Shown: piece after piece, positions 43,506 to 53,258 of the stretch
How the letters are laid out: every line of letters begins with the position of its first letter
How positions within the stretch are numbered: the first letter of the stretch is position 1
Source: Armatimonadota bacterium
Lineage (GTDB): Bacteria; Armatimonadota; Fimbriimonadia; Fimbriimonadales; Fimbriimonadaceae
Direction: 5' to 3'
DNA length: 64,000 bases
Assembly (NCBI GenBank): GCA_020161505.1
Contig: JAIUNY010000007.1
Coordinates: forward strand, 1-64,000
The notes under the pieces: generated by a model
Databases searched by the model: none
Seen by the model: the letters and a program-made list of their open reading frames with translations, nothing else
What the model was told of the DNA's origin: nothing
Translations under genes and position numbers: made by a program

Positions 43506-43940
43506 CTAGAAGCCCAGTACTTTCCGGAGCTCCGCCTGAATCTCCGCATGATCGACCGGATGAAACGCCGGTGAGCCGGGCCAGTCGTAGAACCAAATGG
43601 GCTTCGTACGCAGTTCTTCCGCCTCGTCGGAGAAGCGGGGCACCACGTGGGCATGCAGAGCTGGCTCCAGATTCCCCAGAATTTCGTAGTTGATCCTGAC
43701 CGCTCCCGTCACCTGCAGAACCGCATCCCCGAGCCGGGTCATGTCATGTAAGAATTGAGCCCGAGCCTCTCCGGTCAGGGCATTCAGGTGCGGCACCACA
43801 GGATCGGGATACAGCAAGCAATATCCAGGAAGCACTTGCGGATCGCCCATCACGGCCCAGCCGCTCGGCATTCTGCCCAGCACTCGGGGGAGCTCACCCG
43901 CTCGACAAGCCTCGACGAATCGGTGGATGGCGGTGCTCAT
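43506..43940 (-). CDS. HIT-family nucleotide hydrolase/transferase
   Basis: 144 residues from ATG 43940, which overlaps the stop of the giant repeat protein (ATGA). HIT triad in EPALHAHVVPRF (H-A-H-V-V-P, the last His replaced by Pro, as in the HxHxxPR subtype). It is similar to Ap4A-like hydrolases of the HIT superfamily. The co-translation with the sugar-acting operon upstream is unexplained. Confidence 0.8.
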   Translation of the reverse strand: MSTAIHRFVEACRAGELPRVLGRMPSGWAVMGDPQVLPGYCLLYPDPVVPHLNALTGEARAQFLHDMTRLGDAVLQVTGAVRINYEILGNLEPALHAHVVPRFSDEAEELRTKPIWFYDWPGSPAFHPVDHAEIQAELRKVLGF

Positions 43941-46648
43941 GGATTCACCCTCTTGGCGACCGCACGCACCGCAGGAATCGGATCGTTTCGGAGCGACATC
44001 ATCGCTTCTCTCCCCGATGCCGGACACCTTCCGTCGAGCTGCAGCATCGCGGTGATCCGAACCCCCGGACGAGGATCGAGCAAGCTCTTGGCAATCTCCT
44101 CCAAGGCGTTGTACATGTTGATTCGTCCCATGATGGTCAACCCGAGCCGGGCCCGGCTTTCATCTGGCTCGCCCGCCAAGGCCTGCCCGATCTTGTATCC
44201 CATTTCCGGCTGACTCACGATCAAACGCATCGCGGCTTCTCGAACAAATGGATCACTCGAACCGAGCATCGTGCTCGCGGTGCCGAGCGATGCGGAATCC
44301 CCCATCTGGCTGAGCGCGACCATGCTCGCCCGAACCAACAGGGGGTCATCCGAAATCAAAAACGGCAGAACCGCATCCGTCGCTCCTCGAGCCTTCAGGG
44401 CACCCGCCGCTCGGATCGCCACCAATCTCAGAGCCGGTTTGTCCCGAATGATCCCTGGCAGCAGGGCTCCAATGTCGGTAGCGTTTGCTTCAATCGCGAT
44501 GCGGATGATCGGCTCGATATCGGCATCGACCCCTTCCAGAGCTTTCGCCCCGAGGGCCGCGACCGCCGGAGCCCCCAGAGCCCGAGTGAGTCTTCCCCAC
44601 GCCCGAACCTGGAGTCTCTGGACGCTTCGCAGTCGATTCGCGATGAGCCAATCGTAGCCGGGCATCCCAATGGCGATCAAATCGCGAAGAGCTGTTTCCA
44701 CCTGAGCCTGCGCGGTTCCGACTCCCCACTGGCTTGCCAAGCGGTAAAGCCGATCCATCTCTTGCGGTGAAGGCATCGCCTTACTCCCAGGCTCAGGATC
44801 GGGAGTCACCGGAGGGGGCGGGGCATCACCGGTCGCCGGGGTCGAAAGATCCTGATCGAACGCGGTGGCAAGCGCGGTGGCGAGTCCCCACCCATCGCTC
44901 ATCCCGACGGGATATTTATCTGTCCCGCTGAGATCGAGAAACAGGCCGTAACTCGGCATGCCTCGATCTTCTCGACCAAAGGCGGGGAGCGCCGTGTAGG
45001 TGTCGGTGCCCGCCGCCTCGATGAAAAGTCCAAAACCGTTGGCGACTCCCGTGCCCGGGCGCGCATCCTTGGAGGCATAGAGATCATCGCCTGCACGGTC
45101 GAAAAGCACGGCCACCCCATAATCGTGTCCAATGGCTTGCGCTGCCCCGACCTTGACGGTGTAGGAATCATCCCCACCCAGGTCGAAAAGATAGGCCGAT
45201 GTCAGGTGCATCGCGCTACCTTGAACGTAGTGATGCCCGGAATAGGTATCCGCGCCATCGGCGTCACAAAGCGATCCGACGGCGAACCAGTAGCTCGCGC
45301 CTTGAGCATAGGAGTCGGCGAGGTAGCGGTCGTTTCCGCTCACGTCGGTAAGGAATCCCGCACCGCCCGCGACTCCGCCGCTGTCCTCGCGGTACCCCAT
45401 GCCGAACCCTTGGGAGAAACTATAGGCCACTCCCGTGAAGAGCGGAGAATTCATGATCCGACCGTCCGCGCGGTAGGTGTCACGCCCGGCTCGATCCACG
45501 AGCCACCCGACCCCTCGCGTTCGTCCCGCTCCCTGACCAAAGAGTTCGCATCGATACGAATCGTGTCCACCCGTGTCGAGGCAGAGCCCCACTCCGACCA
45601 TCCCGAATCCAGACCCAAGAGCCACGTGGCTGAGCGTGTCATCCCCGCCCTGATTGACGAAGATCCCGACTCCGCCAATTCCTGCTCCGAAGTTCACCGA
45701 CTGACCGCGCAAGTCGTCGTTGCCGCCAGCATCGACGGCGATCCCGATCCCCAAAGCCGCCGCACCCACGCTCAGATCGGGGACGGCGTAGGAGTCATCA
45801 CCACTCACGTCGATCAACACGCTGGAGTAGCCGACCCCCGCCCCATGCCGACCGGTGTACCGATCATCGCCTCCCAAGTCAATCGTGATGCGGGCATCCA
45901 GATCATCGTGAAGGTCACTGCCTCGCCCCGCAATCACCATCGGCAAGGTTCCTACGCGGGTTTTGATCTTCCCGGAGACCTCCTCTTTGTTGGCTTGAAG
46001 CTTCGTGGTCGCAAACTCTACCGAGGCTGCAAGTCGTTCGGCGGCTCGGAGCATCCGAGGCATGTCAATCCGGTCCGCCAAAGCCAGCGTCTGAGCAAGC
46101 CCAAGAGTCTGCCCGCGCACGAAACTCAGCTGAATCGATGGCTCCTCCAGAGCAAGGGTCGGAAGCGATTCGATCAGCTGGCGTTGCTCGGCTGGGCTCA
46201 GTCTCTCACAAGCCCCGCGAATTTCGGCATCGCAGAGCACGACCGCCGCTCCGAGCTCCTCGACAATCGCCTTGAGACCGGGCGGCAGCGTGGCCCCCAC
46301 GGGCTGTACCGCGATCGCGGTCGATCGCGGTGAGAAGGTGACCTCCAGCATCCCCGCCGCCTGGCGGAGCAACTCCGAGCTCGATGCCTTCCCCGCGACG
46401 GCATGCTTTGACATGAATTCCTGGCTCGCCGCCAGGGGATCGCTCAGGCCCACGCGAACGGGCGAGATCATCGGCATTCCCGGGTAGAGCCGCCGTTCAA
46501 CGACCAGGTGCTGCCGCGTCATGTTTCCGACGAACAGCATGTCGTCGATTCCTGTGAGTTCTTTCTCCGTGAACTGGGCAAGCCCGAGGCCTGGCATCAT
46601 CGCCAATACGAGCCCAAGCAAGCGCGGCCATCCCTGCCGATGCAACAT
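43937..46648 (-). CDS. Giant secreted repeat protein with D-x-x-G-x-D-x-Y repeats and HEAT-like region
   Basis: About 903 residues from ATG 46648, with a signal peptide (WPRLLGLVLAMMPGLGLAQ). After a helical N-terminal domain (~250 residues), about 12 tandem ~27-residue repeats with consensus [ILVF]-D-x-x-G-x-D-x-Y-x(n)-G-x-G-x(2-3)-G-[VF]-[AGL]-x-[LF] cover ~275-620 (e.g. IDVSGDDSYAV, LDTGGHDSYRC, FDLGGDDSYTV). A Pro-rich linker follows, then HEAT-like helices to the end (FVREAAMRLIVSQ, PGVRITAMLQLDG). The Asp/Gly pattern suggests a calcium-binding beta-roll-like solenoid. Function unknown. Coupled to a HIT gene downstream and placed after GH51. Confidence 0.8.
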   Translation of the reverse strand: MLHRQGWPRLLGLVLAMMPGLGLAQFTEKELTGIDDMLFVGNMTRQHLVVERRLYPGMPMISPVRVGLSDPLAASQEFMSKHAVAGKASSSELLRQAAGMLEVTFSPRSTAIAVQPVGATLPPGLKAIVEELGAAVVLCDAEIRGACERLSPAEQRQLIESLPTLALEEPSIQLSFVRGQTLGLAQTLALADRIDMPRMLRAAERLAASVEFATTKLQANKEEVSGKIKTRVGTLPMVIAGRGSDLHDDLDARITIDLGGDDRYTGRHGAGVGYSSVLIDVSGDDSYAVPDLSVGAAALGIGIAVDAGGNDDLRGQSVNFGAGIGGVGIFVNQGGDDTLSHVALGSGFGMVGVGLCLDTGGHDSYRCELFGQGAGRTRGVGWLVDRAGRDTYRADGRIMNSPLFTGVAYSFSQGFGMGYREDSGGVAGGAGFLTDVSGNDRYLADSYAQGASYWFAVGSLCDADGADTYSGHHYVQGSAMHLTSAYLFDLGGDDSYTVKVGAAQAIGHDYGVAVLFDRAGDDLYASKDARPGTGVANGFGLFIEAAGTDTYTALPAFGREDRGMPSYGLFLDLSGTDKYPVGMSDGWGLATALATAFDQDLSTPATGDAPPPPVTPDPEPGSKAMPSPQEMDRLYRLASQWGVGTAQAQVETALRDLIAIGMPGYDWLIANRLRSVQRLQVRAWGRLTRALGAPAVAALGAKALEGVDADIEPIIRIAIEANATDIGALLPGIIRDKPALRLVAIRAAGALKARGATDAVLPFLISDDPLLVRASMVALSQMGDSASLGTASTMLGSSDPFVREAAMRLIVSQPEMGYKIGQALAGEPDESRARLGLTIMGRINMYNALEEIAKSLLDPRPGVRITAMLQLDGRCPASGREAMMSLRNDPIPAVRAVAKRVNP

Positions 46649-46684
46649 GTTGCCCAGTTTAGCCGAGACTCCGCCTCTCACGGA

Positions 46685-49798: not shown

Positions 49799-50236
49799 AT
49801 GCCATCGGCACCGATTCGAGTTTCCGCTTACGTGCTCCTGGAGGATGCCGGGAAGGTGCTTTTGTGCCGACTCTCCGAATCAATGGGGGATTCAGCCGGT
49901 AAGTGGACTCTCCCCGGCGGCGGCCTGGACTTCGGGGAACATCCCGAGGAAGCAGCCTTGCGCGAGGTGATGGAGGAGACGGGATTGGAAGCGCGGATTG
50001 ACGGTTTCGCCGCCTTTGACAACCTCGTGATGCCCGTCGCGGGCGTGCCGACTCATGCGGTGCGAATTCTCTTCCACGGATCCGTGATCGGAGGCGAACT
50101 TCGACCCGAGCAGGATGGCTCAACCGACACGTGCGCCTGGTTCTGCCCGGATGAAGCCGCCACGATGCCCTTGGTCGAACTCGCGGAGGCGGGATTGGTT
50201 GCTTGGCGGGCCCGGCATCGGGAAGGAGCAAAATGA
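49799..50236 (+). CDS. Nudix hydrolase
   Basis: 145 residues with a full Nudix box GGLDFGEHPEEAALREVMEETGLEA (GX5EX7REUXEEXGU), residues ~42-64. It hydrolyses a nucleoside-diphosphate-linked substrate. Divergent from the GH51 operon (33-bp gap to the secreted-protein start). The stop overlaps the ATG of the lipoprotein by ATGA, so the two are coupled. Confidence 0.9.
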   Translation: MPSAPIRVSAYVLLEDAGKVLLCRLSESMGDSAGKWTLPGGGLDFGEHPEEAALREVMEETGLEARIDGFAAFDNLVMPVAGVPTHAVRILFHGSVIGGELRPEQDGSTDTCAWFCPDEAATMPLVELAEAGLVAWRARHREGAK

Positions 50237-50625
50237 AAGCGGTTTGGCTGAGTGCTCTGGCTTTTGCCCTCGCTGGTTGTGTCGCAGAGGCTCCGGTCGA
50301 ATCTGGGACGACCTCCGAGCCCGCCTCGATCCAGGTCAACACGAGCATCGGATTTCGCAGCGACGAATCGCTCCGAGAGCACTACAACAAGCACCATCGC
50401 CAGTGGGGCGAGATCACCCGTGCGGAGTATCTCTTCATGGCCCAGGAGCTCCGTGATACTCCGTCCAGCAAAGACGTCTTGGTCGCCTATCGTCCAGATG
50501 GTGTGGTGAGCAAATACGACCGCCGCGACAACGAATTCCTCGCCTACAACCGGAATCTCACCATTCGCACGTTCTTCCGACCAAACGACGGCGAGCGGTA
50601 TTTCCACCGACAGAAAAGGCGTTAG
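50233..50625 (+). CDS. Lipoprotein with BECR-type RNase-like domain
   Basis: 130 residues from ATG 50233. Lipoprotein signal MKAVWLSALAFALAGC (lipobox ALAGC, Cys16). Residues ~46-127 match the polymorphic-toxin C-terminal pattern: LREHYNKHHRQWGEITRAEY, then DVLVAYRPDGVVSKYD and NLTIRTFFRPNDGERYF. In toxin tails this type of module (BECR-fold, RNase-like) is normally paired with an immunity gene and carried by large secreted effectors. Here it is a free lipoprotein and no immunity gene is recognisable. Translated with a Nudix hydrolase. Function is inferred. Confidence 0.65.
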   Translation: MKAVWLSALAFALAGCVAEAPVESGTTSEPASIQVNTSIGFRSDESLREHYNKHHRQWGEITRAEYLFMAQELRDTPSSKDVLVAYRPDGVVSKYDRRDNEFLAYNRNLTIRTFFRPNDGERYFHRQKRR

Positions 50626-50860: not shown

Positions 50861-51208
50861 CTAGATATTCGGATTTAACCACAAGGCTGGCTGTTGGATT
50901 TCCCAGACTAGCGACAAAGCACCGCAAATCACAAAGAGCCCAAAACTCGCTAGTATCCAGTAAATCAATGTCACAGGCACGCTATCCAGGGTTCTACCTA
51001 GTCGGAATCTGAACAACAACACCTTACCGGTGCCGAAACAAATTCCGAGGAAACCTATGAGAGCACCTAAGTCAGCCACCCATATTGGCATATCACCTGG
51101 CCAAACATTGTGGGACGAGAGCAAAATCACGGCGACAGACACGACGAAGCACACAACCGCTGCAACTATGCCTACGACTCGCCACTCGCTTCGAGCTTCT
51201 AAAATCAT
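50861..51208 (-). CDS. Small membrane protein, unknown
   Basis: 115 residues from ATG 51208, overlapping the end of the upstream gene by ATGA. Hydrophobic segments at ~12-32, 45-66 and 80-102 (VVGIVAAVVCFVVSVAVILL, LIYWILASFGLFVICGALSL). No family seen. It lies in a lower-GC patch and is co-translated with the poly-C-tract gene. Confidence 0.6.
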   Translation of the reverse strand: MILEARSEWRVVGIVAAVVCFVVSVAVILLSSHNVWPGDMPIWVADLGALIGFLGICFGTGKVLLFRFRLGRTLDSVPVTLIYWILASFGLFVICGALSLVWEIQQPALWLNPNI

Positions 51209-52188
51209 GGCGTACATACCTCTGCACTCGCATTGTCATCTGGAAGCAACAATCTACATCCGCGCACACAGCGATCATAATCTTCACGGCACTCGTTCAA
51301 GTCGGCCTGCAGGTCTTCGCGGATAGCCATCATTGTGAGCCCCCAAATCACGCCGCCACCGATCACGGAACCGAAAGCTCCTGCGACTGCACCGGCTCCA
51401 CTGCCCACAAGAGCACCGGTTACAGTAGCTCCCACGACCAAGCCTCCGTAGGCAATAGTAGCATCACGCCCTTTCCTTGCAGCGTCACGCTTTGCATCGG
51501 AAGTACAGTCACGACCAGTTTCATTGCAGCCACGCATGCAACTTCTGAAGGGATCTAGAGACACGACTCCTGCTCTCACTTCTGCCAGAGGAGCCGTAGT
51601 TCCAATCGGATAGTAAATATCACTGATGCGATCCCAGTACCCGAGTAACTTGCCGGTTGCATCCTCATCAGCCTCGACCATAACGACGGTAGGCATATCG
51701 ACTCTAGAAGCCGTCAGCATCGTAACATCACCGTTCATGTTTTTTACTGGAGCAAACGTGACGACTTCGTTGGCACTTTGAGTTGCAGTGATCTGTTGAA
51801 TCTCTCCGGATATATCCACTAACCATTCAACTTTTTTGCCCCCTCCGAGATTAATCTGCCCTGTGTTCGCAGAGATCGCTATGCTGCCGGAAGAGTATCC
51901 AAGGGAAATCAGGTGGTTCTTGAACTGCTCGTGATTTTCTTCTTGCGGCGACAGATTGGTGACAGTCCTTGCTTTCATCCAAGCCATGAACTCACTTGTC
52001 CTCGACACCTCCGTCACGCGCTGAGAAATTTCAGATTTCTGTTCCATTGGCTCACCCTTTTTGTTGGTCAGAGTCAAGGGGCTAAGCAGGAGTAGCGATG
52101 CAATAGCCAATCCCGCAGTGATCAGAGGACGTCGTTGCAACGCTTGGAAAACGGGGGGGGGGGGAGTTGTCCTTTCATGACATCGCAC
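51205..52188 (-). CDS. Exported Cys-motif protein with 12-base homopolymer at its 5' end
   Basis: 327 residues read from GTG 52188. The codons ACT-(CCC)x4-GTT encode TPPPPV from a run of 12 C just before an N-terminal membrane segment (LITAGLAIASLLLLSPLTL). Body: beta/alpha region, a Cys-pair motif CMRGCNETGRDC (~residues 215-226), glycine-rich hydrophobic stretch (VVGATVTGALVGSGAGAVAGAF), and a second Cys-pair CREDYDRCVRGC. The C-x3-C-type pairs at both sides of a Gly-zipper are unusual. At 10 or 13 C, an ATG 11 bases downstream of the GTG (M-K-G-Q) would come into frame. Function unknown. Low-GC patch. Confidence 0.6.
   Translation of the reverse strand: MRCHERTTPPPPVFQALQRRPLITAGLAIASLLLLSPLTLTNKKGEPMEQKSEISQRVTEVSRTSEFMAWMKARTVTNLSPQEENHEQFKNHLISLGYSSGSIAISANTGQINLGGGKKVEWLVDISGEIQQITATQSANEVVTFAPVKNMNGDVTMLTASRVDMPTVVMVEADEDATGKLLGYWDRISDIYYPIGTTAPLAEVRAGVVSLDPFRSCMRGCNETGRDCTSDAKRDAARKGRDATIAYGGLVVGATVTGALVGSGAGAVAGAFGSVIGGGVIWGLTMMAIREDLQADLNECREDYDRCVRGCRLLLPDDNASAEVCTP
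52153..52164 (-). repeat. Homopolymer of 12 G (poly-C on coding strand)
   Basis: Twelve consecutive G on the plus strand lie within the 5' coding part of the gene ending at 51205. A tract of this length is the longest G/C homopolymer seen in the window. It is a candidate slipped-strand mispairing site or sequencing weak point. Confidence 0.85.
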
Positions 52189-52271: not shown

Positions 52272-53258
52272 TCACCCTTGAAGACGTGTCATTTTTGTTA
52301 CATGCACAGCTCGTAGACTGCAAGTCTTACTCGTCCGGATTTGTTTCATGCGTCCGGTCAGCCCTTCTTGACTTTCTGGCGAGAGGGTTCCAGACTCACA
52401 CCGCGCCAGGCATGAAAGGCAGTCGCCGACTCGGCAAGAAAACCCAATCCTCACCTTCGCGCGAAGTAGAGCATCGAGCACGGACTCGAAAGGCCGGTAC
52501 GGAATCTCCTGCCCCTCAAAGCTGAAGGTTCCGCCAAGGGCGTCAAGCATCTCGCCCATCACCTGATGCGTGATCTCCCACGGCGACCCCGGATCTGGCT
52601 CATCGAGGATTTGCCAGGCGAGCACTCTGGTGCCTTCCACCTCGGGTACGCGGTCCATGCGCGCCAGGCGCTGCTCGAATACCGAGCTCAGCCCGGGCCA
52701 ATCCGCGACATAAGGAATCGGATTCCGCAAGAAAGCCGTCATCTCGAAGCTCGGATCACCAACCAACCCCTTAGGATCGATCACCCTCCAGCCTTTGCGC
52801 TCATCCCAGAGGATGTTGAAATGATGCAAATCGCCATGCAGAAAAACCTTCTCCGGTGAGCTTGCATCAAGCCAGCGAAGACTCATCGAGTCTCGATCAA
52901 AGTATTCCGAGAGAGGCAGCATCCCCTCAGCCGGAAGCCCGCGCATCTGCGCGGCAAAGCCCAGAACGATCTCCAAGCAATCCTCATCGCTCAATCCCGA
53001 GTCGGCGAGAGTCGTCCCTGGCACCACGCGCTCCATCAGCAATGACCCGGTTTCCGAATCGTGCTCAAATACCTCTGGTCCAATTCCGCCACTCAAAAGC
53101 AAAGCCGCGCGCCAGCCAGAGGACATCTCTTCCCCCCGAAACGGCACTTTCAGCACCCGAGTGGCATCGGCGTACACGCGCGAGCAATGCCCTGCGGGCA
53201 ACTCCTCCGTCGGAGAAAACCCCCACTTCTCCGCCAGCCGCGATGCGATCTCATCCAC
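52272..53258 (-). CDS. Aminoglycoside/hydroxyurea-kinase-like domain fused to 2Fe-2S ferredoxin
   Basis: 328 residues. N-terminal ~240: APH(6)/hydroxyurea kinase-type fold with TRVLKVPF (Lys), LHGDLHHFNILWD (catalytic Asp), VIDPKGLVGDPSFEMTAFL (metal Asp). C-terminal ~85: FSFEGQEIPYRPFESVLDAL and FSCRVGDCLSCLARCESG, a plant-type 2Fe-2S motif with Cys at 275, 280, 283 and 313, i.e. C-x4-C-x2-C-x29-C exactly. A clean in-frame fusion with no linker disorder. The 3' end reaches a low-GC stretch. Enzymatic role unknown; a self-contained kinase-redox fusion is unexpected. Convergent with nothing; divergent from ROK. Confidence 0.7.
   Translation of the reverse strand: MDEIASRLAEKWGFSPTEELPAGHCSRVYADATRVLKVPFRGEEMSSGWRAALLLSGGIGPEVFEHDSETGSLLMERVVPGTTLADSGLSDEDCLEIVLGFAAQMRGLPAEGMLPLSEYFDRDSMSLRWLDASSPEKVFLHGDLHHFNILWDERKGWRVIDPKGLVGDPSFEMTAFLRNPIPYVADWPGLSSVFEQRLARMDRVPEVEGTRVLAWQILDEPDPGSPWEITHQVMGEMLDALGGTFSFEGQEIPYRPFESVLDALLRAKVRIGFSCRVGDCLSCLARCESGTLSPESQEGLTGRMKQIRTSKTCSLRAVHVTKMTRLQG

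Follow-up and report, generated by a model that had tools for sequence, protein, structure and literature searches.

A predicted small-molecule kinase joined in frame to a plant-type [2Fe-2S] ferredoxin in a single genome of the Fimbriimonadaceae

A single open frame of 328 codons plus stop, lying in the 64,000-nucleotide stretch of Armatimonadota contig JAIUNY010000007.1 analysed here (the window), encodes a predicted small-molecule kinase continued directly into a predicted [2Fe-2S] ferredoxin. Our comparisons indicate that the kinase-ferredoxin fusion (P0001; Table 1) is real and apparently unique to the window genome among the genomes searched, and that it is most likely a recent gene fusion whose product would have tethered but independent activities. 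The initial annotation of this DNA had described a small-molecule kinase and a [2Fe-2S] ferredoxin in one continuous frame; that description is borne out, and each sequence detail that it gave is correct.

Profile and motif comparisons establish the N-terminal half as a predicted full-length kinase of the APH_6_hur type with intact catalytic motifs. Residues 12-217 match APH_6_hur (PF04655) in Pfam with 69.1 bits against a gathering cut-off of 27 (E-value 4.8e-19), and both the catalytic HGDLHxxN motif and the D(P/A)KG motif, the Asp of which we take from its role in the APH fold to be metal-binding, are present. They take the forms HGDLHHFN and DPKG that the initial annotation had pointed to, and their columns (residues 141-148 and 161-164) are conserved across 15 aligned kinases. 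The fused protein thus resembles the APH_6_hur kinases, namely the APH(6) streptomycin phosphotransferases and the Hur hydroxyurea phosphotransferase, but differs from them in falling far under the APH(6) equivalog cut-off and in having a C-terminal ferredoxin that is absent from 18 aligned homologues. By the NCBIfam equivalog cut-off it does not qualify as an APH(6)-I streptomycin phosphotransferase (64.7 bits against 325). Because the kinase is APH_6_hur by profile yet lies outside the named APH(6) equivalog, its substrate cannot be assigned from the family. The kinase assignment rests on sequence, since the AlphaFold2 model of this half, computed from an alignment that contained no kinase rows and from which three misaligned viral kinases had been removed, is poor and is not interpretable there.

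A tree of 18 kinase sequences places the window kinase outside the clade formed by the kinases of six sister species (G002-G007; clade support 1.000); its nearest grouping, with weak support (0.771), is with kinases of other genera. The window's own genome gave neither a further kinase match nor a further ferredoxin match. Plasmid records match the kinase half among the matches listed, with 0 of 228 covering 80% of the query. A phage origin was rejected: no phage record matches, and scans of viral contigs returned no ferredoxin and three weak relatives of the kinase, all without a ferredoxin. Two features of the homologues deserve separate mention. One kinase (L022, 1426-2343, plus strand) has an insertion of about 35 residues, rich in Cys and His (HHNESGHCGQC...GCLHH), that could bind metal. 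Two sister kinases (L038, 5553-6365; L039, 4922-5734) share an insertion, PSPSMGRVREGL, that is absent from the other aligned kinases and that could be an in-frame repeat element.

The C-terminal half is likewise established, by profile, alignment and predicted fold, as a full-length plant-type [2Fe-2S] ferredoxin with all four ligand cysteines, for which cluster binding is predicted. Residues 249-316 match Fer2 (PF00111) in Pfam with 35.2 bits against a cut-off of 21 (E-value 1.2e-8), and the match is not a chance one, because six stand-alone ferredoxins from the same genus share 39-49% identity with this half. The fused ORF has Cys at residues 25, 94, 275, 280, 283, 287 and 313, of which C275, C280, C283 and C313 give exactly the C-x4-C-x2-C-x29-C ligand spacing of plant-type [2Fe-2S] ferredoxins that the initial annotation had reported. 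In the AlphaFold2 model residues 241-328 form a block with pLDDT 88-98, and the best structural matches of the modelled ferredoxin half are solved plant-type ferredoxins. Its best NCBIfam match is to PRK05713-like ORFs, which we take, from the NCBIfam name, to be ferredoxin reductases; these differ in having the ferredoxin N-terminal in a longer ORF, whereas that of the window lies C-terminal to a kinase. Most other ORFs matching the ferredoxin profile have about 316-390 aa.

Table 1. Features of the fused ORF and of its surroundings in the window
Feature	Position	Strand	Remarks
Fused ORF, 328 aa (P0001)	52272..53258	-	continuous frame from a GTG start
Kinase half, residues 1-242, APH_6_hur (streptomycin/hydroxyurea kinase-like)	52533..53258	-	Pfam 4.8e-19; 37-50% identity to 14 aligned family kinases
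Catalytic loop HGDLHHFN, residues 141-148	52815..52838	-	H141, G142, D143, L144, H145 and N148 invariant in 15 of 15 kinases
DPKG, residues 161-164	52767..52778	-	D161, K163 and G164 invariant in 15 of 15 kinases
Junction, kinase C-terminus ..MLDALGG joined directly to ferredoxin N-terminus TFSFEGQ..	52527..52538	-	no linker
Predicted plant-type [2Fe-2S] ferredoxin half, residues 243-328	52275..52532	-	Fer2 1.2e-8; 39-49% identity to stand-alone ferredoxins; block pLDDT 88-98
Span of cluster cysteines C275, C280, C283, C313	52320..52436	-	invariant in 23-row alignment
327-aa ORF	51205..52188	-	GC3 0.50; between ferredoxin and 140-aa ORF; no confident Pfam match
140-aa ORF	50203..50625	+	converges on ferredoxin; same convergent orientation near ferredoxin in two sisters
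914-aa HEAT-repeat gene	43937..46681	-	marker of ancestral ferredoxin neighbourhood
HIT-domain gene	43506..44027	-	marker of ancestral ferredoxin neighbourhood

The two halves were found joined only in the window genome: 0 of the 84 other genomes of the family have both together. A whole-protein query matched 65 of 201 genomes (the window's own included) and, in a search of the family, 47 of 85 genomes (the window's own again counted), and outside the window genome the kinase and ferredoxin matches always lay at different places. Among ORFs in 154 fetched loci, both profiles occur in one ORF only at the window's own place, to which loci L001, L127 and L142 all correspond. The ferredoxin profile matches 32 of 291 genomes of the phylum; for the other 31, the kinase profile in the same ORF was checked at the fetched loci, and the remainder were judged by ORF lengths or by the whole-protein search. 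Outside the genus, these matches fall mostly in ORFs of about 316-374 aa, usually near the N-terminus at the loci examined. A search of genome contigs with the whole protein (P0001) gave no match, and one with the ferredoxin alignment gave 73 loci; the open-licence PMC literature, judged by titles and abstract openings, yielded no APH-ferredoxin fusion. A conserved kinase-ferredoxin family would have both halves in one ORF in more than one genome, and we found them so in one. An old conserved fusion was rejected for lack of a second case among the genomes searched, and the remark of the initial annotation that it knew of no family combining such a kinase with a ferredoxin agrees with this distribution.

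Comparison with separate homologues places the junction at the point where kinase homologues stop and stand-alone ferredoxins start. All 18 aligned kinase homologues end where the window ferredoxin begins; the alignment covered 18 of the kinase ORFs found and omitted others, among them ORFs truncated at a contig end (L021) or split (L023). Stand-alone ferredoxins of about 84-93 codons occur in six of the seven sister genomes (G002-G007), at loci other than those of the kinases; the seventh (G001) has merely a weak ferredoxin match, inside a longer ORF. The stand-alone ferredoxins share with the window ferredoxin 39-49% identity, the four ligand cysteines and, in four of six (G002, G003, G004 and G007), the position of the C-terminal end, those of G005 and G006 being somewhat longer; they differ from it in being separate genes with their own start, whereas the window ferredoxin is fused behind a kinase and evolves faster.

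These observations bear on the proposal, made in the initial annotation, of a redox-controlled or redox-linked phosphotransferase. Its author had named orthologues ending before the Cys region as evidence against it, and the 18 aligned kinases do end there, as homologues whose strict orthology to the window kinase is not established. The proposal is not supported: kinase homologues end at the junction, and relatives of the ferredoxin in the genus have genes of their own, located elsewhere. A kinase whose phosphotransfer is gated by the oxidation state of the cluster would gain some plausibility from the tether, which in the AlphaFold2 model passes from helix 226-241 into strand 243-247 with no linker and so makes mechanical coupling conceivable, but elsewhere in the family the kinase has a gene to itself, the fusion is in no other genome searched, and there is no conserved sign of coupling. 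Redox control of the kinase is thus possible and unsupported, and we regard it as very unlikely. The fusion looks like a recent event in a single lineage and not like a new family of redox-controlled kinases.

Could the frame be two genes after all? A small consensus error at the junction might mask an overlap of a kinase stop with a ferredoxin start. That the halves meet at their natural ends, with no linker, is what such a pair would give, and so is the arrangement in the six sister genomes with a stand-alone ferredoxin, up to four of which have it abutting or overlapping the stop of the gene before it (SurE twice and Ham1/RdgB twice): the ferredoxin ATG of G005 and of G006 follows immediately on an in-frame TAA, in G002 the SurE stop overlaps the ferredoxin start in a 4-bp ATGA, and in G003 there is a GTGA overlap if GTG is the ferredoxin start. 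However, the junction sequence is not homopolymeric, by our reading of the letters no single substitution would yield a stop together with a usable ferredoxin start, so that a two-base indel would be needed, and the contig runs unbroken for 135,866 bases in an assembly whose completeness is rated at 99.94%. We consider two overlapping genes unlikely. A frameshift at the C-terminus was ruled out, the tail aligning in frame with the stand-alone ferredoxins to the same stop position; of a 3' frameshift or assembly error, which the initial annotation had named as a risk, nothing in the sequence gives a hint, judged from the letters and not from reads. Apart from the fused ORF, a run of about 12 G at about 52154-52166, near the start of the 327-aa ORF, is a place where the consensus length may be uncertain.

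Gene neighbourhoods suggest how the fusion may have arisen. In sister genomes the ferredoxins (L040-L044, L033) sit among nucleotide-housekeeping genes, downstream of SurE in G002, G003, G004 and G007 and of Ham1/RdgB in G005 and G006 (one of each identified by Pfam, the remainder by place or alignment), with an HD/YfbR-like hydrolase downstream in five of six. In the window genome the SurE and HD genes lie on contigs C3 and C22, away from the fused ORF. Three markers of the ancestral neighbourhood (HIT gene, 914-aa HEAT gene, 140-aa ORF) lie within 9 kb of the window ferredoxin, but the block of ferredoxin and 140-aa ORF is inverted with respect to the other two genes. Among the sisters, the 140-aa ORF has the ferredoxin close by in G003 and G007 only, lies elsewhere in the genome in G005 and G006, has no match in G002 and G004, and is present in G001, which has no stand-alone ferredoxin. 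The ROK gene neighbouring the fused ORF has no close sister relative (28-31% identity).

According to the reading that we favour and hold to be probable, two genes that are separate elsewhere were fused in frame in this lineage, giving two activities that would be tethered yet essentially independent. A rearrangement with its breakpoint immediately 5' of the ferredoxin would have placed the kinase gene directly upstream; the kinase would then have been another of the upstream genes that abut this ferredoxin, and loss of its stop would have joined the frames. The order of these events is one that we infer. A breakpoint at this place, with the kinase moved upstream, accounts for the altered neighbourhood, for the ROK gene without close sister relatives and for the position of the kinase outside the sister clade; counting against it, the ferredoxin start of G004 and of G007 does not coincide with the end of any upstream ORF. 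The product would combine a kinase acting on a hydroxyl or hydroxylamine group of some small molecule with a one-electron carrier, each working essentially independently of the other, and a separate ferredoxin may also be made, starting from ATG codons within the frame (residues 234 and 237).

The window ferredoxin has changed more than its relatives. Seven of 31 sites that are invariant in the other six ferredoxins are altered in it, against 0-3 when each of the others is tested in the same way; with one of each close pair kept, the counts are 8 of 33 against 2-4, an excess partly to be expected if, among the seven lineages, that of the window is simply the furthest removed. Four of the seven changed sites cluster around the fourth cysteine, where the FKACxC block is altered and a near-invariant Phe, at 310, is Ser. 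GC3 is 0.547 in the ferredoxin half vs. 0.694 in the kinase half. The faster change and the lower GC3 count against a functional fusion in that they would fit decay too: the kinase would have lost its stop and would carry, as a passenger, a ferredoxin that no longer matters and whose HD partner is no longer adjacent. Against such decay, the frame is open to the ancestral stop position, all four ligand cysteines are retained, and the modelled fold has a block pLDDT of 88-98. We rate a decaying passenger as improbable; as judged from the alignment and the model, the ferredoxin half is intact yet diverging, with its four ligands kept and its fold predicted at high confidence.

A more specific role was also considered, in which the fusion joins two arms of a class I ribonucleotide reductase (RNR) defence: a Hur-like kinase would inactivate hydroxylamine poisons of the hydroxyurea type, and a YfaE-like ferredoxin would restore the radical cofactor. 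Hur is described as phosphorylating the hydroxyl of the hydroxylamine moiety of hydroxyurea (PMC3335164), and YfaE, of E. coli, as having a role in maintaining the RNR radical cofactor, with mutants that are hydroxyurea-sensitive (PMC8304116). The placing of the sister ferredoxins beside SurE, Ham1/RdgB and HD/YfbR-like genes speaks for such a role. The class I RNR small subunit (PF00268) has a match in 16 of 85 genomes of the family, including all eight of the genus; none of the eight carriers outside the genus has a stand-alone ferredoxin, so an association with RNR is unsupported there. The window ferredoxin resembles YfaE in being part of a set of small ferredoxins of which seven of seven match the YfaE profile weakly, and membership of YfaE was ruled out for it (18.9 bits against an NCBIfam equivalog cut-off of 75). 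Linkage to nrdB, a criterion for YfaE, is not found in the window genome, where the PF00268 match is on contig C27 and the ferredoxin on C29. Because the YfaE cut-off is failed, the PF00268 gene is unlinked and the carriers outside the genus are without a stand-alone ferredoxin, we give this role a very low probability, about as low as that of redox gating and slightly below it.

As a singleton, the fusion is of limited significance, apart from illustrating how a protein domain can be gained from a ferredoxin gene that in many cases directly adjoins the gene before it. If it is expressed with both halves working, the protein would be a naturally occurring small-molecule kinase that has its own electron carrier attached.
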